From NCBI RefSeq assembly GCF_019343455.1, contig NZ_CP049362.1, positions 1,364,001 to 1,428,000 on the forward strand: a stretch of DNA of 64,000 bases, given 5' to 3'. The translations under genes and the position numbers were made by a program. The notes under the pieces were generated by a model. It was not told the DNA's origin and did no database searches. It saw only the letters and a list, made by a program, of their open reading frames with translations. Below, in pieces: positions 21,335 through 30,378 of the stretch. Source of the DNA: Alcaligenes ammonioxydans. GTDB taxonomy: Bacteria; Pseudomonadota; Gammaproteobacteria; Burkholderiales; Burkholderiaceae_B. Position 1 is the first letter of the stretch, and every line of letters begins with the position of its first letter.

Positions 21335-21838
21335 TTACATGCCGCAGCCGCCAGCGGTCACGGTGATGTGATGCTGGGCGCTCAGAACGCGGCCATCGCT
21401 CAACCGTGCCAGGGCACGGATGGTTTGGGTTTCAATCAGACGCAGGCGCACGGCGACTTCCGTTGTACCTGCCAGGGCGGTAAAGCGAAAGCGGCAGGCC
21501 AGGGGGTGTGGGTTGCCCTGGGCCAGAATGATCAGCTCCTGGCAGTACAGCTCGTCATTGACGGGTAGGTCCAGCACGACCTTGACGGGCACTGCGGCGG
21601 GGTTGTCTCCAAGGGCGGGCATGTCCAGTTTCAAGCCTTTTTCCTCAGGGGTCGCGCCGTTCAGGAACTCGTTCACCACCGCCTGGACCTGGGCGGCGGT
21701 GGCCGGCTTGAGCAATTGATCAAAAGCGACTTGTGCATGCAGATTGACGGGCAGCCAGGCGGCGCCCAGTCCGGCCGCACTGCCCAGCAACAGCTGGCGA
21801 CGACGCACGAAACGGGAGGGAAGTTTAGAGGAAGTCAT
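21335..21838 (-). CDS. soxY: Sulfur carrier protein SoxY
   Basis: A 167-residue protein. A Tat signal is present (VRRRQLLLGSAAGLG). The C-terminal swinging arm ends GGCGM; the Cys there carries the sulfur intermediate. In most SoxY proteins the arm reads GGCGG, so the last residue differs. The ATG at 21838 lies inside the 3' end of the upstream flavoprotein gene (14-base overlap), which points to coupled translation. No SoxAX or SoxB is found in the window, so SoxYZ here may trap sulfur from a sulfide dehydrogenase instead of feeding the full Sox cycle. Confidence 0.93.
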   Translation of the reverse strand: MTSSKLPSRFVRRRQLLLGSAAGLGAAWLPVNLHAQVAFDQLLKPATAAQVQAVVNEFLNGATPEEKGLKLDMPALGDNPAAVPVKVVLDLPVNDELYCQELIILAQGNPHPLACRFRFTALAGTTEVAVRLRLIETQTIRALARLSDGRVLSAQHHITVTAGGCGM

Positions 21839-23153
21839 TGAAACGGCTCTGGATCCACTGAAAATCTTCTTGAACAAGGTCGGGGGTGCGAACATCCATA
21901 TCAATCTGTGTTTGCAGCACCTTGCCGCTGGCATCCAGCTCGTACTCAAACTTGACCGAAATTTCTTCTTGCGGGTCCCCATTCACCATCATGTAGCACA
22001 GGTTGTCGGGGAGTACCGGCACGACTTCCTTGCCTGCAATCCGTTCGGCCAGGTTCTGGGAAACGATTTTCGCCACGGCATGCGCAACGTGCGCGCTCTT
22101 GGGATAGTGGCCGAACTGATCGGAAATAAAGCCCATCGAGTCACCCACCACATAGACATTGTCGTCGTCGCGTGCGGTGAACAGGCGCGGATCAATATTG
22201 GCCCAGCCGGTGGGTTTGCCGTCAGGGCCTGTGCCCACCAGACCCGCGTTCCAGACCATGTCGGCCGCCTGATGCGGAGGCATGAGCACGGCATCGTCGA
22301 AATCAAAGTCGCCTGCAGTGGTCTTGATGTGTTTTTTGAAGGGGTCGACTTCACGCACCCGTGCATTGGGGACATGGGTGATGATGTCCGGGTACAGCTC
22401 CTGGAACGCGGCGCGGTAGCCCTCGCCAATCGGGGCGATATTGGGCTTGGGGTCCAGAATGATGATCTTGCCTGGAATCTTGTTGGTCTTGATGTGCCAG
22501 GCCATCAAACAGGCGCGTTCGTAGGGCGAGGGCGGACAGCGGTGGGGCGGCGGGGGCAGCGTCATGACAATGGTGCCGCCCTTGAAGGCCTTGAGCTTGT
22601 TCTTCAAAGCAAACATCTCGGCGTTCGGGATGTAGGCATTGGGAAAGTGCTGGCGTGTGTATTCCGCGGCGTAGGTGTCATTGCCAAACCAGGCGTCATA
22701 GGCATTGCGTATGCCGCCCGACAGGATCAGGTAGTCGTATTCCAGCGCGCCCTGGGTGGTACGTACGGTTTTCTTGTCGCGTTCGATGGCTGTGACTTCG
22801 GCATGCACCAAGCTGTACCCATACTTGATCGAAGGAGCCAGCATGTCATGGTTCAGGAAATCAGTGTTGACGATATCAATCAGCCACTTGTTGCTCATGG
22901 GCCCCGACCAGAAGGTGGGGTTGCGCTCGATCAGCACAACCTGAGCTTGGGGAACCAGCTTGGACAGATACTTGGCAGCGGTCATCCCGCCCCAACCGCC
23001 GCCACAAATCACAATGCGCGGGCCTTTGGTGTGGCGCGGCAGGATCTGACTGGTGTTGGTGATGATGGCGGGGGCTGAAAGGCTGGTGGAAGGAAGAACA
23101 ATTGTTCCGAGTGCGGCGGCTGGGGTGGCCAGCAGAAAATTTCTACGATTCAT
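21825..23153 (-). CDS. Second FccB/SoxF-like flavoprotein
   Basis: A 442-residue Tat-exported flavoprotein (NRRNFLLATPAAALG at residues 2-16). The FAD motif is VICGGGWGGMTAAKYL. Both cysteines of the sulfide dehydrogenase disulfide are kept in context (HRCPPSPYERAC, DNLCYMM), and YVVGDSMGF is the second flavin contact. It differs clearly from the 19181 protein, with an extended proline run PPPPHR. The start at 23153 has AGGAAC upstream; the longer frame to 23186 does not. First gene of the minus-strand run leading into soxYZ, it may load sulfur directly onto SoxY. Confidence 0.9.
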   Translation of the reverse strand: MNRRNFLLATPAAALGTIVLPSTSLSAPAIITNTSQILPRHTKGPRIVICGGGWGGMTAAKYLSKLVPQAQVVLIERNPTFWSGPMSNKWLIDIVNTDFLNHDMLAPSIKYGYSLVHAEVTAIERDKKTVRTTQGALEYDYLILSGGIRNAYDAWFGNDTYAAEYTRQHFPNAYIPNAEMFALKNKLKAFKGGTIVMTLPPPPHRCPPSPYERACLMAWHIKTNKIPGKIIILDPKPNIAPIGEGYRAAFQELYPDIITHVPNARVREVDPFKKHIKTTAGDFDFDDAVLMPPHQAADMVWNAGLVGTGPDGKPTGWANIDPRLFTARDDDNVYVVGDSMGFISDQFGHYPKSAHVAHAVAKIVSQNLAERIAGKEVVPVLPDNLCYMMVNGDPQEEISVKFEYELDASGKVLQTQIDMDVRTPDLVQEDFQWIQSRFNDFL

Positions 23154-23541
23154 TGTTATGTTCCTCGTGATCATGACATGACACACGTCAATCCTGGTAA
23201 GTAGACCGCTTGGTGCGAGCCAGTATAGCCAAGACTGTCGGGGCTGCGTGGGGTTTTTTGCCGGGCCAAGGCGTTGAAACCAAGGTTAGAGGCCGCTCAG
23301 GCACGGTGCAGCAGCGCAGTTCAGTGCGGGTGGGGGAAGAACGAAGTGGGGGGGAGGGCTGGTCGTGCGGTGGAAACGTCGGACTGCGGGTAAGGGTTAA
23401 CACTCGGAAATGCTCAGGAAACAACAGAAAAACCGGATTTTTTGGATTAAAACGTAACGGCGCTATCTTTGTGCACAAAATCGGAGGATAGTGCAGGGAG
23501 AGAAATTTTTTCTCTGTTCGTTTTTACATTTAGGACTTATT
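23154..23541. other. Divergent control region of the sox-type operon and cold-shock gene
   Basis: No gene is supported here. Close to the cold-shock gene lies a perfect hairpin AGAGAAA-TTT-TTTCTCT (23499-23515), in the probable 5' leader, where structured RNA is common in cold-shock mRNAs. A GGAGGATAGTG at 23484-23493 could start a longer frame (86 residues) in phase with the cold-shock protein, but its added N-terminus is hydrophobic and unlike the family. Confidence 0.45.
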
Positions 23542-23923: not shown

Positions 23924-25279
23924 TTAGAGCGGCGTTGACGCGCTTAGTGGTACGGTTAGCCGAGCCTCCAGACCGCCACCTTGCCGGTTCAGCAGCTCCA
24001 GCGTTCCTCCATGCTGGGTGGCGATGGCGTTCACGATGGACAAGCCCAGTCCGTAACCGGCCTGTTGCTGTGAGCCACGCCAGAAGCGGTTCATAGCCAG
24101 ATCGCGTTCGCTCTCGCTCAAGCCAGGGCCATTATCCAATACGCTGATACGCAGGTATCCCGGTTCTCCCGCCTCAATTCGCAGGCTGATGGCTGCCAAG
24201 GCCTTGGCATAGCGCAGGGCATTATCGATCAGGTTCTGTATGGCTACTGTCAGCAAGGACTTTTCAATTTGCACCGGTCCGGGTTGAGTGTGTGTGTCCA
24301 GCGTGATGGCGTCGATGGTGTCACCATGGATGGCCTTGAGCGCATGTAAAGCTGCATAGACGGCTTCATCGGCCTGACTGCTTTCCTGACTCGCGCCCTG
24401 GCCGTCCAGCCGAGCCAGCTCCAGCAGCCTTTGCAGGATATTTTGCAGTTGCTGCACACCCTGATCGGCCTGACTTAAGGCGGCATCCAGCGTGTCACGC
24501 TCGCCAGGACGTTGGGCCGCCAAATGAGCCACTTGAAGGTGGGTTTTGATGCCTGTCAGCGGGGTGCGCAATTCGTGGGCTGCGCTATCGGTAAAGCGGC
24601 GTTCACGCATGATGGCGGCCTGTTGCCGCTCCAGCAGCGCTTCAATCGTACGCAGCAGCGGCTGCAGCTCCACCGGGGCTTTGACCTGGGGAAGCGGGCT
24701 GTCGTCACCGGGACGGCGGCGGGCCAGCAAATCCCGAATCCGCTCCAGAGGGGCCAGCCCGTGACCGATCCCTATCCACAACAGGAGCAGACTGCCAAAC
24801 AGGGCCACTACGAAAGGCAGCCCGGCCGAGAGCATGATTTCCCGTACCAGGGATTCGCGTATCTCGATGCTGTCAGCGGCGGCAATCTGGATATGCCCCT
24901 CGCGCAGGACAAAGGTGCGCCAGCGCTTGCCGCCATGGATATGGGTGCCAAAGCCCAAGGCCACTTGCGACATGTCCGGACTGCCGGCGGTACGGCTGAC
25001 TGCCTGAATCTCCACTTCACTGCGCACCACGCTGATCTCGCAGGCAACCCCGTCGCGGGCAATGATGTCCAAGGGGCGTTCGGCTGACTGGGCCAACTCC
25101 TGTAGATTCGGAAATTGGGCCACCAGCCCGGCCACCATTCGCGCCGAGGCCGCCAGACGGCTGTCCAGCGCCTCACGCAGGGAATGGCGCGCATCCATCA
25201 GCATCCAGGCCGCCACGGCACTCCATAGCACGGTCAGGGAAATGCCGATCACCAGCAGCAACCTCAGGCGCAAACTCAT
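23924..25279 (-). CDS. Sensor histidine kinase (QseC/TctE-like)
   Basis: A 451-residue membrane kinase. Two membrane helices (about 5-27 and 150-172) bracket a periplasmic sensor part of about 120 residues. A HAMP-like linker follows, then the phospho-acceptor site HELRTPLTGIK and the ATP-binding boxes NLIDNALRYA, DNGPGL and GYGLGLSIV. It starts 13 bases after the response regulator stop, so the two form an operon. The signal is unknown. It lies between the sulfur genes and the oxidase-thiosulfate operon and may control either. Confidence 0.93.
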   Translation of the reverse strand: MSLRLRLLLVIGISLTVLWSAVAAWMLMDARHSLREALDSRLAASARMVAGLVAQFPNLQELAQSAERPLDIIARDGVACEISVVRSEVEIQAVSRTAGSPDMSQVALGFGTHIHGGKRWRTFVLREGHIQIAAADSIEIRESLVREIMLSAGLPFVVALFGSLLLLWIGIGHGLAPLERIRDLLARRRPGDDSPLPQVKAPVELQPLLRTIEALLERQQAAIMRERRFTDSAAHELRTPLTGIKTHLQVAHLAAQRPGERDTLDAALSQADQGVQQLQNILQRLLELARLDGQGASQESSQADEAVYAALHALKAIHGDTIDAITLDTHTQPGPVQIEKSLLTVAIQNLIDNALRYAKALAAISLRIEAGEPGYLRISVLDNGPGLSESERDLAMNRFWRGSQQQAGYGLGLSIVNAIATQHGGTLELLNRQGGGLEARLTVPLSASTPL

Positions 25280-25291
25280 GTTGTTTCTTTC

Positions 25292-25954
25292 CTAGCCCGC
25301 CGGCCCCAGTCGGTAGCCCAGACCGCGAACGGTCTCAACGATATGGCTGCCCAGCTTGCGCCGCAAATGGTAGATATGGACATTGATGGCATTGCTTTCC
25401 AGATCCTGGTCGTACCCGTAGACGCTGTCACACAGCTGTTCGGCACTCAGAATGGCATGGGGTTTGTTGAGCAGGGCGCGCAACAGGGACAGTTCGCGCC
25501 GGGCCAGGCTGACTGGCTTGCCATCCAGAGTGACATGGCCGGTCGACGCACAGAAGCTTAATCGTCCATATTCAATGCAGTCGGTTTCGTGACCGGCCAA
25601 GCGTCGTGTCAGCACATGCAGACGCGCCAGCAGCTCGTCCAGGTCAAAAGGCTTGATGACGTAGTCATCGCCTCCGCCCAACAAGCCCTCGACCCGGTGA
25701 TGCAGCGCATCGCGGGCGGTCAGGATCAGAATGGGCAGTTTGCGGCCCTGATCGCGCCAGCGGCGCAGCAGCGTCAGTCCGTCCTGATCGGGCAAGCCCA
25801 GATCCAGAATACAGACATCAAAGTGCGAGGACAGCAAGGCCGTATCGGCCAGACTGGCGGTGCCTACGTGGTCCACCGTCAAGCCGTGCAATCGCAGGCC
25901 GGCCACAATTCCGCTGGCGACCAGCGCGTCATCTTCAACCAGTAAGACGTGCAT
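25292..25954 (-). CDS. OmpR-family response regulator (QseB-like)
   Basis: A 220-residue regulator. The receiver domain has acidic residues in LLVEDDALV, the phospho-site Asp in CILDLGLPDQDG, and the Lys in YVIKPFDLDELLARL. The C-terminal winged helix shows LTRREL-like LARRELSLLRALL and a final GLGYRL. The start at 25954 is the usual MxVLLVEDD; the longer frame is unlikely. It is divergent from the ccoN-like gene with about 250 bases between, a natural position for direct control of that operon. Confidence 0.93.
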   Translation of the reverse strand: MHVLLVEDDALVASGIVAGLRLHGLTVDHVGTASLADTALLSSHFDVCILDLGLPDQDGLTLLRRWRDQGRKLPILILTARDALHHRVEGLLGGGDDYVIKPFDLDELLARLHVLTRRLAGHETDCIEYGRLSFCASTGHVTLDGKPVSLARRELSLLRALLNKPHAILSAEQLCDSVYGYDQDLESNAINVHIYHLRRKLGSHIVETVRGLGYRLGPAG

Positions 25955-26207
25955 TCTCCCCCCTTGTCGCGAATGCGGCGTGTTCAGGCAAAGCCTGATG
26001 TTCATTACGTTTCGGCGTTCATGTTAGCAGTCTTGAGGCGGGCGGCAAAAGGCGCCTCTCTCTTAATTTGGCCTTAATCCTGATCCTCTACTGTGAGCTA
26101 GATTGCATTGCATTTGCATCTCGGTACTTACTTTTTTAATAAAACCGGCTGGGGCAATGACGTTTCTCCAGGCTTAGCCGCATGATCGATCTCGGGCATT
26201 TATTCAC

Positions 26208-27803
26208 ATGACTCCTATATTGGGAATATTACTGGCGACCAGTTTTGTCGCCTCTTTGGTGGCACTGGGCATTCTTGTCTGGGCCGTTGCAAACAAACTG
26301 ATTTTCGTCGGCAAGAACGAGGCTGAAACCATCTTCATGAAAGGGGAGTTGGGCCAGCCTGACGATAGCGCTTCCTTTGGGGAGAAGAGCGAGGCGCAGG
26401 CGCATCGTTTTGACGTGTTGCGTGCCGGCATTGATCGCAGTGGCCGAGGGCCGGTTTTGCTGTTGGTGACGGTCGGAATTACCTGGCTGCTGATAGGCTC
26501 GGTGTTTGGCGTGATGGCATCGCTCAAACTGCACTGGCCCGACTGGCTGGCCGATGTGGCCCAGGTGACGTTTGGACGGGCGCGCACCTTGCACCTGAAT
26601 ATTGTGGCCTATGGCTGGTTGTCGGTGACCGGAATCGGTGTGGCCTTGTGGCTGTTGCCACGCATTTTTCATACGCCCTTGCGACGGCCCAATATGGTGT
26701 ACTTCGGTGCCGCCTTGTGGACCCTGGGGGTCTTGGGCGGCACGCTGGCCGTTGCCAGTGGCTGGTCCGATGGCATTGAGTGGCTGGAGTTCCCCTGGCA
26801 GATCGATATTTTGCTGGCGGTAGGCGGTTTTTTCCTGGCCTGGCCGGCTATTGAAACTGCGGCCAAGCGCAAGTCGCGCCATATCTATGTGTCAGGCTGG
26901 TACTTTCTGGCTGGCATGGTGTGGTTTCCCTTCCTTTTCCTGGTATCGAATATCCCGGGCCTGCACATCGGTGCTCAGCAAGCTACCGTGAACTGGTGGT
27001 TTGCTCACAATGTGCTGGGTCTGTGGTTGACGCCGATGGGCGTGGGGGCGGCGTACTACATCATCCCTAAAATCATTGGCAAGCCCGTGTATTCCTACAA
27101 CGTGTCTTTGCTGGGTTTCTGGAGCCTGGCGCTGTTCTACAGTCAGGTGGGCATGCATCACTTGATGGGGGGGCCGGTGCCGACCTGGGCCGTCACCCTT
27201 TCCGTGGTGCATAGCATCATGATGTTTGTGCCTGTGATTGCGGTAGCCATCAACCAGCACGTCACGGTGGCGCAGAACTTGTGGGCCTTCAAGCAATCCA
27301 TGGCCTTGCGTTTTGTCTGGATTGGCGCACTGATGTACACCCTGTCCTCTTTCCAGGGGTCGCTGGAGGCCATCCGTTCGGTGAACTCGGTGACGCACTT
27401 TACGCATTACACCGTCGGTCACGCCCATCTGGGCGCCTACGGCTTTGTGTCCATGGTGATGTTTGGCACTTTGTATTACATGATGCCGCACATTCTGGGA
27501 CGTCGCTGGCCCTTTCCGGCGCTGATCAAGACCCATTTCTGGCTGGTGACGGCAGGCTTCACGATTTATGTGCTGGCCTTGAGCATTGCCGGGGTCGTGC
27601 AGGGCATGGGTCTGATGGACCCGGGCGCCAGTTTCGGCGAGATCACTCGCAAGATGGTTCCGTATCTGGAGGCCCGCTCGATCGGCGGCACCATGATGAC
27701 CTTGGGTCATTTCATTTTTGCGGCTCACTTTGCCTTGCTGCTGTTGCGCAAAGACACCGCTGTTAATGCGACTCCTACACTTGCTCGGGCAGATGCATCA
27801 TGA
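26208..27803 (+). CDS. ccoN: cbb3-type cytochrome c oxidase catalytic subunit (CcoN-like)
   Basis: A 531-residue inner-membrane subunit of a haem-copper oxidase. Seen ligands are His129 (low-spin haem), His267, His317 and His318 (CuB), and His405/His407 near the haems. Tyr311 lies six residues before the His pair, the spacing of the cross-linked Tyr in CcoN, so it is an oxidase and not a NO reductase. The N-terminus has an extra membrane helix (about 5-27) and a charged linker to residue 80, somewhat like a fused CcoS; this is only a resemblance. It overlaps ccoO by four bases. No CcoG/H/I/S accessory genes lie here. Confidence 0.92.
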   Translation: MTPILGILLATSFVASLVALGILVWAVANKLIFVGKNEAETIFMKGELGQPDDSASFGEKSEAQAHRFDVLRAGIDRSGRGPVLLLVTVGITWLLIGSVFGVMASLKLHWPDWLADVAQVTFGRARTLHLNIVAYGWLSVTGIGVALWLLPRIFHTPLRRPNMVYFGAALWTLGVLGGTLAVASGWSDGIEWLEFPWQIDILLAVGGFFLAWPAIETAAKRKSRHIYVSGWYFLAGMVWFPFLFLVSNIPGLHIGAQQATVNWWFAHNVLGLWLTPMGVGAAYYIIPKIIGKPVYSYNVSLLGFWSLALFYSQVGMHHLMGGPVPTWAVTLSVVHSIMMFVPVIAVAINQHVTVAQNLWAFKQSMALRFVWIGALMYTLSSFQGSLEAIRSVNSVTHFTHYTVGHAHLGAYGFVSMVMFGTLYYMMPHILGRRWPFPALIKTHFWLVTAGFTIYVLALSIAGVVQGMGLMDPGASFGEITRKMVPYLEARSIGGTMMTLGHFIFAAHFALLLLRKDTAVNATPTLARADAS

Positions 27804-28450
27804 ACCGACTCTTACCTTTACTCATCGGAGCCATTGGCGTTTTGCTGCTGGCCACTCTCATGCTGGTGATTCTGCCGGCTTGGCAATTGCGCACCTCGGA
27901 GCCTCCTGCGCCATTGAAGCCCTATACCGTCCAGCAGTTGCAGGGCCGTGATCAGTACGTGGCGAACGGCTGCTTGTACTGTCACAGCCAGCAGCCCCGC
28001 TCGAGCGGTCAGACTCTGTTTGACACCGCCCGTGGCTGGGGGCGTGCTTCTACGCCCGGTGACTATTTTTACGACTCGCCCCACTTGCTGGGAACGATGC
28101 GTACCGGTCCGGACCTGTTCAACGTCGCAGCGCGCATGAAAAGTCGGGATTGGCACTTGACTCACCTGTACCAGCCGCGTGCGATTTTCGACTGGAGCCT
28201 GATGCCATCCTACCCTTATATGTTCGAACTGAAAGCTCAGCTCGAACCGGGCGATGTGCTTGTGCGTCTTCCCGAATCCTTGCAGCCAGAGGGCAAGCAT
28301 GTGGTTGCCCGCCAGGAAGCCCTGGATCTGGTCGAGTATTTGCTGGCCTTGGATCGCACCTACGCGACTACAAGCCAGGAGTTGGATAAACGCGACCGCG
28401 GCTACGACCGCCGCCCTGGCGAGACCTTGATGGACTCGGGCGCTCAATAG
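27800..28450 (+). CDS. ccoO: cbb3-type oxidase monoheme subunit (CcoO-like)
   Basis: A 216-residue membrane-anchored cytochrome c. One helix (about 6-26) anchors it, with the haem site CLYCH at 58-62 followed by SQQPR, and the axial Met segment SLMPSYPYMF. These are CcoO hallmarks (the family usually has GCYNCHSQMIRP). It accepts electrons from a c-type donor and passes them to CcoN. Its start overlaps the ccoN stop (ATGA). Confidence 0.93.
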   Translation: MNRLLPLLIGAIGVLLLATLMLVILPAWQLRTSEPPAPLKPYTVQQLQGRDQYVANGCLYCHSQQPRSSGQTLFDTARGWGRASTPGDYFYDSPHLLGTMRTGPDLFNVAARMKSRDWHLTHLYQPRAIFDWSLMPSYPYMFELKAQLEPGDVLVRLPESLQPEGKHVVARQEALDLVEYLLALDRTYATTSQELDKRDRGYDRRPGETLMDSGAQ

Positions 28451-28458
28451 GACATGTC

Positions 28459-29268
28459 ATGACAAAGAAAAAAGATTCGAGTTCGCCTCTGGTCGAGAAT
28501 ATTGACCCTAGTTTTGAGCCATGGGAGCCACCGCGTCCCATTCCGATTTTTCTGCTGGCCGTGCTGGTGGCGCTGGCCTTGGCGGGCGTGGGCCTTTATC
28601 TGCATGATCTGGCCCCGCATGCCGCGCCAGATGAGTCCACTGTCATCGGCTCTCACGGCGGTGGTACGCCAGTCGTGCCGGCAATGGCTGCTTCAAGGGA
28701 TGCACCGGTGCTGGTGCATTCGGGGCAGGGCAGTGTGTGGAGCTGCGCCTCCTGTCACGGTGAGGCGGGTGAAGGCGCGGGTATCACCCCTCGTCTGGCC
28801 GGTATTTCAGAGGCATATCTGCTCAAGCAGCTCGAGGATTTTGCCAGTGGCGCACGTTTGAATGAGTCCATGCAGTATGTGGCTCGTGGCTTGCAACCGG
28901 CGGATATGAAAGAGCTGGCCAGCTACTACGCCAAGCTGCCTGTCCCCGCTATTGCAGTACCCAGTTCGGACGCGGATCTGGCGCGTGGGCAGGCCTTGTT
29001 CCAGAAAGGAGACTGGAAGCAGAACGTGCCCGCCTGCATCAGCTGTCACGGCAGCCAAGGTGAAGGGGTAGGGGCTGCGTTCCCGCCGCTGGCGGCTCAA
29101 CAGGCGGACTACCTGTTCAGTCAGCTGTCGGCCTGGAAAGGCGGTCATCGTCACAATTCGCCGCAAACGCTGATGGATGATATTGCCTCGCGCCTGTCCT
29201 ACGAGGACCTGTATGCGGTTTCCTACTACGCCGCCTCCTTGCCAGCCCCTGGCACGCAGGCGAAATAA
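28459..29268 (+). CDS. Membrane-anchored diheme cytochrome c (CcoP position)
   Basis: A 269-residue protein with one membrane helix at about 29-48 and two class I cytochrome domains, with haem sites CASCH (96-100) and CISCH (193-197). It sits in the CcoP place of the operon and has the same architecture, but each domain resembles the soluble c4 type (GEAGEGAGITPRLAG; GSQGEGVGAAFPPLA) more than classic CcoP. It would carry electrons from the TsdA-like enzyme or a soluble cytochrome to CcoO. AGGA lies six bases before its ATG. Confidence 0.9.
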   Translation: MTKKKDSSSPLVENIDPSFEPWEPPRPIPIFLLAVLVALALAGVGLYLHDLAPHAAPDESTVIGSHGGGTPVVPAMAASRDAPVLVHSGQGSVWSCASCHGEAGEGAGITPRLAGISEAYLLKQLEDFASGARLNESMQYVARGLQPADMKELASYYAKLPVPAIAVPSSDADLARGQALFQKGDWKQNVPACISCHGSQGEGVGAAFPPLAAQQADYLFSQLSAWKGGHRHNSPQTLMDDIASRLSYEDLYAVSYYAASLPAPGTQAK

Positions 29269-29289
29269 GATCAGAACAGAGAGTTTTTT

Positions 29290-30378
29290 ATGAAAGATAC
29301 GCAAGAGCAGGGTCGTGGCAAACCCGTCATGTCGGGCGGACGCAGACTGGCCTGGGGGGCCGGTATAGGGGTATTGCTGTTTGCCATCGGATATGGTCTG
29401 AACGCCAGGGGCTGGTTGTCTTTTTCCCTGGGCTCGCCCGATTCGGCGACGATTAAGGTGGGCGATGTCGGTTACAGCCGTGAGGCCATGCAAGCCGATC
29501 GAGAGGCGCAAAGCAAGGACAAGCTCGCGGTCACGGCGGGAATGCCGGTGGGCCCGGACGGCTACTTTGTGCCGCCTGCCGAGAGCAGCATTCCCGACAC
29601 ACCATACGGGGAAGCCGTTCGGCGTGGACAACAGATTTTTATGGAAACCTCCACGACAGTGTCGGATCACGTGGGCAACACACTGGCCTGTGTGAACTGC
29701 CACCTGGATGCCGGGCGCCGTGAGCATTCAGCGCCCATGTGGGGGGCTTATGTCAGCTACCCGGCGTACCGTTCCAAGACCAAGGCCATCAGTACCCTGG
29801 AAGATCGCATTATTGGTTGTTTTACCTATTCGATGAATGCCCAGGCTTCTTCTACGGGCGTGGCGCCACCGGCAGGCAGCGACGTCTACCGTGATTTGAT
29901 GACCTATATGTACTGGATGTCTGACGGGGCGCCGACCGGTCAGAAGTTGCCTGGCGCCGGCTTTCCCAAGGTGAAAAAGACGGAGCTGGGCTATGACGTC
30001 GCGCGGGGTAAAGAGGTTTACACCAATAATTGTGTGCTGTGTCACGCGGTGGATGGTCAGGGACAGAAGGATGCTGAAAGTGGCGTGGTCTTCCCGCCTT
30101 TATGGGGGAATAACTCCTACAACTGGGGAGCGGGGATGGCACGTATTGATACGGCAGCGGGTTTCATCAAGGCCAATATGCCTTTGGGTAAACCATTTTC
30201 CCTGACCGATCAAGAAGCCTGGGATGTTGCCGCTTACATCAACAGTCATGAGCGTCCCAAAGATCCTCGTCAGACAGGGACGCTGGAGCAGGCTCGCGTG
30301 GAATTTCACGATGGAGAGGAAAGCTACTACGGCAAGAAAGTGAACGGCCTTGTGTTGGGTGGGGGCGTGGACAAGTAA
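29290..30378 (+). CDS. tsdA: Thiosulfate dehydrogenase TsdA-like diheme cytochrome c
   Basis: A 362-residue periplasmic diheme cytochrome with an N-terminal membrane anchor (about 18-38). Haem 1 is CVNCHLDAGR (134-138), and Cys177 in LEDRIIGCFTYSMN matches the unusual axial cysteine of TsdA. Haem 2 is CVLCH (248-252). The closing NMPLGKPFSLTDQEAWDVA is also TsdA-like. TsdA joins two thiosulfates into tetrathionate (or the reverse). The N-terminal anchor, rather than a cleaved signal, would fix it beside the oxidase encoded upstream. It is last in the operon; no terminator was seen after it. Confidence 0.88.
   Translation: MKDTQEQGRGKPVMSGGRRLAWGAGIGVLLFAIGYGLNARGWLSFSLGSPDSATIKVGDVGYSREAMQADREAQSKDKLAVTAGMPVGPDGYFVPPAESSIPDTPYGEAVRRGQQIFMETSTTVSDHVGNTLACVNCHLDAGRREHSAPMWGAYVSYPAYRSKTKAISTLEDRIIGCFTYSMNAQASSTGVAPPAGSDVYRDLMTYMYWMSDGAPTGQKLPGAGFPKVKKTELGYDVARGKEVYTNNCVLCHAVDGQGQKDAESGVVFPPLWGNNSYNWGAGMARIDTAAGFIKANMPLGKPFSLTDQEAWDVAAYINSHERPKDPRQTGTLEQARVEFHDGEESYYGKKVNGLVLGGGVDK

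Follow-up and report, generated by a model that had tools for sequence, protein, structure and literature searches.

A ccoNO-tsdBA operon of Alcaligenes ammonioxydans and its likely role as a thiosulfate:oxygen oxidoreductase

A 64,000-nucleotide stretch of Alcaligenes ammonioxydans DNA (contig NZ_CP049362.1, positions 1,364,001 to 1,428,000; hereafter the window) is part of a one-contig genome of 3.77 Mb, whose closest named relatives are Alcaligenes species. It contains an operon with the gene order ccoN-ccoO-tsdB-tsdA and without CcoP (Table 1). We consider it likely that this operon encodes a dedicated thiosulfate:oxygen oxidoreductase in which the dihaem cytochrome TsdB is a subunit of the terminal oxidase. 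A preceding interpretation of the window (hereafter the sequence-only reading) had proposed a self-contained thiosulfate-to-oxygen module with its own oxidase, and both the anatomy and the inheritance of the operon support this proposal. The strongest support is that TsdB carries the membrane anchor of the oxidase third subunit and is inherited together with the oxidase genes.

Gene products and the anchor of TsdB

The four open reading frames, all on the forward strand, are separated by -4, 8 and 21 bases, in exact agreement with the tight packing described in the sequence-only reading. Their products contain, in order, the Pfam domains COX1; FixO; two cytochrome c stretches; and cytochrome c with SoxA-TsdA. 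The gene content proposed in that reading, namely CcoN, CcoO, a dihaem cytochrome and TsdA, is confirmed; its description of the oxidase as small does not hold, given that CcoN is 531 aa long as compared with 474 positions in the classical ccoN model.

The top PDB match of the third gene product is to the TsdB half of 5lo9, a TsdBA fusion (123.6 bits), followed by cytochromes c4. A structural model (mean predicted local distance difference test score, pLDDT, 84.5) contains one predicted membrane helix, residues 30-51, and matches the fold of 5lo9 first and then those of c4 cytochromes, including the c4 chain of the bc1-cbb3 supercomplex 8smr. Assignment of this gene to CcoP was rejected because it scores 31.7 bits with the ccoP model, against a cut-off of 179.95, and has TsdB as its best match; where a canonical CcoNOP oxidase has a dihaem CcoP with two membrane helices, the third gene of the window encodes TsdB with one. 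By sequence and predicted fold, the protein is TsdB, to which TsdA is known to pass its electrons: a c4-type dihaem cytochrome encoded directly 5' of tsdA. It departs from a soluble periplasmic carrier in that helix 30-51 comes with an oxidase-type anchor.

Profile comparison identifies the TsdB membrane helix as a homolog of the anchor of the CcoP-like third subunit of this oxidase subfamily. An hhalign comparison matches the anchors of dihaem TsdB and of its trihaem form (a monohaem protein and TsdB in a single reading frame) at 99.4%, the anchored TsdB proteins and the monohaem third subunits that occur in stand-alone oxidases at 97.7%, the trihaem and monohaem proteins likewise at 97.7%, and the monohaem third subunits and the second helix of classical CcoP at 91%. 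Control segments reach at most 15.3%; among these, the free-TsdB set is weak, as it partly lacks true N-termini, and the TsdA and CcoN N-terminus sets are sounder. Because the anchor sets had been selected by motif, which favours a match, the test was repeated without it. At 111 of 114 ccoO places a haem-bearing gene starts between -60 and +120 bases (88 distinct genes); 86 of these distinct third genes contain P-x-E-x5-P, and the two others are gaps. In the alignment of the monohaem anchors with CcoP, the anchor Glu (residue 23 in the TsdB of the window) pairs with the second Glu of the classical EEYNNPLP, which we take to be the proton-entry residue of the K channel. The CcoP helices alone suffice for oxidase assembly, and the CcoP-like helix may have been retained in TsdB because proton uptake requires it.

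The best PDB match of CcoN is Pseudomonas stutzeri CcoN (3mk7), aligned over CcoN residues 89-512, and the same entry is the best Foldseek match of a CcoN model (18 sequences, mean pLDDT 74.8). The sequence-only reading had found all His ligands and the active-site Tyr in this protein, and the alignment bears this out: the histidines of haem b, haem b3 and CuB (H129, H267, H317, H318, H405 and H407), as well as Tyr311 in helix VII, which aligns with a Tyr of P. stutzeri CcoN, are shared by either 91 or all 92 of the aligned rows (85 distinct; a few are classical CcoN), the rest being gaps. The window protein scores below the NCBIfam ccoN equivalog cut-off (248.9 vs 583.15 bits). CcoO has a single CXXCH (CLYCH). 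With the His ligands, the helix VII Tyr and a haem c subunit, the enzyme belongs by sequence to the C-family, and O2 reduction is the predicted activity.

For TsdA, the best PDB match is again 5lo9 (293 bits), followed by Allochromatium vinosum TsdA 4wqc (180.5 bits). Its haem sites are C134-H138 and C248-H252, with C177 as the haem-1 Cys and M297 as the haem-2 Met; both CXXCH motifs, the haem-1 Cys and the haem-2 Met are present in 25/25 TsdA rows from loci in which tsdBA is linked to this oxidase, the window's included. This ligand set is that of the TsdA family, and thiosulfate dehydrogenase activity is predicted.

Gene arrangements and co-inheritance

The four-gene order extends beyond this strain, recurring in other Alcaligenes and in Pusillimonas-type genomes, so that the sequence-only reading does not fall on the ground of a gene order found in one strain alone. 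A CcoN scan of genome contigs identified 65 loci, 14 of which (L030-L039, L050, L073, L074 and L076) have tsdA and tsdB close downstream. The oxidase subfamily usually occurs without tsdBA, and the loci of this kind (Marinobacter, Halomonas, Burkholderiales, Gemmatimonadota, Myxococcota and others) mostly consist of ccoN-ccoO followed by a monohaem cytochrome gene. Three linked forms are found. In the five-gene form, with one extra gene, an anchored monohaem gene lies 5' of an unanchored TsdB (Halomonas korlensis, Marinobacter aromaticivorans, a Halothiobacillaceae bin, Guyparkeria and an Indioceanicola plasmid); in the trihaem form, the third gene encodes both in one frame (Paracoccus and Szabonella); and in the direct-fusion form, the anchor is joined straight to TsdB without a monohaem domain (Alcaligenes, Pusillimonas and kin, and the genome G516). 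These forms make up a graded series that illustrates how one subunit can give way to another. The best-listed 120 TsdB relatives comprise 65 anchored dihaem proteins, 35 anchored trihaem proteins and 20 others, of which 19 lack the anchor motif, a few being plainly truncated. CcoN relatives with about 61-62% identity are found on plasmid records of Paracoccus aminovorans, P. versutus (typed conjugative) and Indioceanicola; tsdBA was verified on the latter two.

Anchor and oxidase genes go together. The sample of TsdB or c4 genes (98 distinct and complete), which was partly found via CcoN and is hence biased, divides into 21 anchored and 77 unanchored genes. The anchored genes have ccoO upstream and tsdA downstream in 21/21 cases; ccoO is upstream of 5 of the 77 unanchored genes, all in five-gene loci with the anchor on a separate monohaem gene, and 17 of the 77 are without tsdA downstream (for some, the visible upstream sequence is limited to about 600 bases). 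A family search started with TsdB, in which genomes were not chosen by oxidase, found anchored TsdB in 18 of 250 genomes, with ccoO or ccoN upstream in all 18.

Phylogenetic trees point in the same direction. The 17 linked CcoN among 81 rows group in a single clade with a Shimodaira-Hasegawa-like approximate likelihood ratio test (SH-aLRT) support of 100, obtained by a quick method with long-branch warnings. Linked TsdA (24 of 79 rows, two linked rows, among them that of the window's own locus, having been omitted as too short) fall in one clade (100/99) together with one unlinked row nested beside Paracoccus; when the window's TsdA and that of L214 are added, the clade holds 26 linked rows of 81 plus the one unlinked (SH-aLRT 99, quick method). 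The nested row comes from the genome G688 and belongs to a trihaem fusion in which, by eye, a lipoprotein-like N-terminus replaces the anchor (L158 4567-6819); neither ccoN nor ccoO is present in the 12.8 kb fetched around this tsdA. In this single natural case, the oxidase and the anchor are missing together.

Another association of TsdA with a cbb3 oxidase is seen in the genome G557, where a TsdA gene immediately precedes a classical ccoNOP, with the strand being the same (L175 2339-6915); this association is apparently independent.

Proposed mechanism and alternatives

In the proposed mechanism, TsdA would form tetrathionate by oxidizing two thiosulfate in the periplasm, and would pass the electrons to TsdB. 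TsdB would be no free carrier; its membrane helix would replace the CcoP-like third subunit of a cbb3-type oxidase, and its two haems would deliver electrons through CcoO to CcoN, whose haem b/b3-CuB centre would reduce O2. We infer a single four-protein complex, as well as the direction of electron flow, the energy yield and any proton pumping. The specific scenario in which the oxidase exchanged its own cytochrome subunit for the acceptor of the dehydrogenase, keeping the anchor helix and the invariant Glu, and operates as one complex without bc1 or a diffusing cytochrome c, is the one we lean towards, if only by a little.

Several observations weigh against this interpretation. The linkage is rare: it occurs in 2 of the 43 TsdA-bearing genomes (TsdA at E 1e-30) among 398 of the phylum, and in 46 stretches around TsdA genes of the phylum, some of them cut by contig ends, this oxidase is found in the genomes G000 and G516 only. 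In G516, the linked ccoN has an internal deletion (L157 8642-9140), with ccoO, the anchored tsdB and tsdA staying in place. A TsdB/c4 match at 1e-30 is present in 85 of the 399 genomes of the order, with only the window's own match covering the anchor; in 385 alphaproteobacteria, the sole trihaem match at 1e-45 is the unanchored protein of G688; and in 293 genomes around G516, 11 have TsdA at 1e-80, with ccoO 5' of tsdB in G516 alone. These three surveys lower our confidence slightly. Two genomes of the window's own genus (G004 and G005) are without the operon, G004 having an unanchored tsdBA; many anchored TsdB rows are close relatives, so that the counts given above do not represent independent events. 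Finally, direct profile matching of the anchors to classical CcoP fails (3.3% for the dihaem and 4.9% for the trihaem proteins), and the link of anchored TsdB to CcoP runs via the monohaem subunits.

The genes could also be merely co-transcribed, with TsdB membrane-bound for convenience, thiosulfate electrons entering the general pool of cytochrome c, and bc1 also feeding the oxidase. Such an arrangement would fit a genome that, as is the case here, has further terminal oxidases (the classical ccoNOP and a second paralogue of ccoNO, besides other haem-copper oxidases), the finding that most sampled TsdBA pairs are without an adjoining oxidase, and the presence of a cytochrome c4 chain within the bc1-cbb3 supercomplex structure 8smr. 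We nevertheless regard it as unlikely, because the anchor is the oxidase subfamily's own, no other third subunit is encoded in the Alcaligenes operon, and the sole lineage seen without the oxidase is also without the anchor.

Two further alternatives change the activity of one of the enzymes. A CcoN-like protein acting chiefly as a nitric oxide reductase, or as an O2/NO scavenger fed by thiosulfate, is suggested by the matches to NorB structures, which follow those to cbb3 oxidases, and by the Gln that in this subfamily takes the place of the classical Glu (STFEG), with a Glu four residues on (Q383 and E387; 27354-27368). The helix VII Tyr, a residue typical of O2 reductases, is kept in 91/91 non-gap rows, and P. 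stutzeri CcoN is matched far better (227.7 bits) than NorB (29.6 bits), which is not the closest family by sequence; this function is accordingly very improbable. Still less credible is a TsdA working in reverse as a tetrathionate reductase, with the oxidase incidental. TsdA enzymes can favour reduction, and the TsdA of C. jejuni also has an Asn before the haem-2 Met according to excerpts of PMC5146829; yet the oxidase is unable to supply electrons, and the same Asn is present in 50 of 55 unlinked TsdA and, by alignment, in MpTsdBA, which is described as oxidation-biased in the same excerpts.

If the operon indeed encodes a dedicated thiosulfate:oxygen oxidoreductase, it would provide a terminal oxidase devoted to a single inorganic donor, and the analysis suggests that common heterotrophs like Alcaligenes may gain energy from thiosulfate. 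Direct electron transfer from TsdB to cbb3 has already been proposed, on the ground that c4 cytochromes generally feed cbb3 oxidases (excerpts of PMC9237845, citing Kurth et al. 2016); in this operon, the two proposed partners have been joined by evolution, and the open question of direct transfer becomes directly testable. A tsdA homologue has been noted in Guyparkeria B1-1 and SCN-R1, the latter being the strain of the linked locus L076, and its function was called too early to comment on (excerpts of PMC9032823). The titles and abstract openings found contain no mention of a ccoNO-tsdBA operon or a CcoP-TsdB fusion, and no paper was found that treats tsdB, ccoO and thiosulfate together; the novelty of the arrangement is provisional.

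Regulation, genomic surroundings and known systems

Table 1. Features of the operon and its upstream region (window coordinates)
Feature	Position	Strand	Evidence
ccoN-like catalytic subunit of a C-family (cbb3-type) oxidase, 531 aa	26208..27803	+	PF00115 5e-79; ligands; Tyr311; Foldseek 3mk7
ccoO-like monohaem cytochrome c subunit, 216 aa	27800..28450	+	PF02433 2.6e-31; one CXXCH at residue 58
tsdB, c4-type dihaem cytochrome, 269 aa, CcoP-like N-terminal membrane anchor	28459..29268	+	5lo9 TsdBA; cytochrome c4
tsdB anchor segment, residues 19-51 (FEPWE...RPIP plus helix)	28513..28611	+	hhalign 97.7% to monohaem third-subunit anchors
tsdA, predicted dihaem thiosulfate dehydrogenase, 362 aa, N-terminal hydrophobic segment (by eye)	29290..30378	+	PDB 5lo9, 4wqc
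Direct repeat CTTAAT-N5-CTTAAT, PmrA/QseB-type box	26062..26078	+	Sole such match in 64 kb
Divergent response regulator, PmrA/QseB type	25292..26005	-	NCBIfam PmrA 215 bits, QseB 210 bits, both under cut-offs
Sensor histidine kinase, QseC-like	23924..25279	-	HisKA, HATPase_c, 2CSK_N

The direct repeat between ccoN and the divergent regulator gene conforms to what we take to be the PmrA/QseB box consensus. In shuffle controls, such a box arose in 2 of 2000 shuffles for the intergenic stretch of the window and in 0 of 2400 for 12 linked upstream stretches. The box is found upstream of ccoN in 17 of the 20 other linked loci given, several of which are near copies. Paracoccus, Szabonella and Indioceanicola are among those that have it; it is absent from L039, L074 and L076, and occurs in 0 of the 28 stand-alone loci given (of 51 from the CcoN scan). 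The response regulator gene also adjoins the operon in L032-L034 (77-79%), where the sensor part of the kinase is conserved, and a Halomonas study likewise places a QseB gene upstream of tsdB (excerpts of PMC9237845). Control by FNR was rejected for the window operon: with the FNR motif that we assume, no site at up to two mismatches precedes its ccoN, and none is present in 11 of the 12 linked loci given. A perfect FNR site precedes the classical ccoN of the same genome, and sites are present in 15 of the 28 stand-alone loci given, at a chance of about 0.11 each; the stand-alone ccoN paralogue of the genome has neither a PmrA-type box nor an FNR site. By these patterns, the operon is probably switched by the neighbouring two-component system and not by oxygen via FNR.

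Of the accessory genes CcoG, CcoH, CcoI and CcoS, which the sequence-only reading reported as missing at this locus, a separate FixS gene and a CcoG gene are present at the classical cco cluster, at 2.39 Mb, and the CcoS gap is perhaps partly covered by CcoN itself. In the first 60 or so residues of CcoN, FixS (CcoS) is the top Pfam family in 6 of the 7 members given, above the cut-off in three; the window protein scores 13.7 bits, below the cut-off of 23.1, the resemblance spanning residues 1 to about 39 (26208-26324). Hence, a CcoS-like maturation function may be built into CcoN. The CcoI profile PF12156 has no match in any control genome; a CcoI-like ATPase gene is, by eye, kept in the L157 locus of G516. 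SoxB has no match in the genome, and its control matches in other genomes are all below the cut-off. The second ccoN-ccoO-monohaem operon of the genome (L095 5547-10519) is followed by genes for an SCO1/SenC protein and a COQ7-like protein. A flavocytochrome c sulfide dehydrogenase or SQR-like flavoprotein is encoded at 21825-23186 on the reverse strand, and a counterpart is close to the operon in three Alcaligenes loci; its membership in the unit is unsupported, as among the 30 loci given, some with little upstream sequence, it is found in these three only.

The window operon resembles classical cbb3-type CcoNOP oxidases in the fold of the catalytic subunit, its ligands and Tyr, and in CcoO, but differs from them in the lack of a dihaem CcoP, the score below the ccoN cut-off, the FixS-like N-terminus, the Gln/Glu shift and TsdB as the third gene. 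The stand-alone ccoN-ccoO-monohaem operons of Marinobacter, Halomonas, Burkholderiales and Gemmatimonadota share with it the CcoN subfamily, CcoO and the anchor motif; they differ in that the third subunit is monohaem, no tsdBA follows and the PmrA-type box is absent from all those given. The known TsdB-TsdA systems, including the TsdBA fusion of Marichromatium purpuratum (5LO9), have the same domain content and the same haem sites in both parts, but TsdB is fused to TsdA in M. purpuratum, whereas in the window it has an oxidase-type anchor and lies in a ccoNO operon. In the bc1-cbb3 supercomplex of Pseudomonas aeruginosa, electrons come from quinol via bc1. Its structure (8SMR) provides, by fold match, a precedent for a c4-type cytochrome placed with a cbb3 oxidase, with the difference that c4 is a separate chain there.

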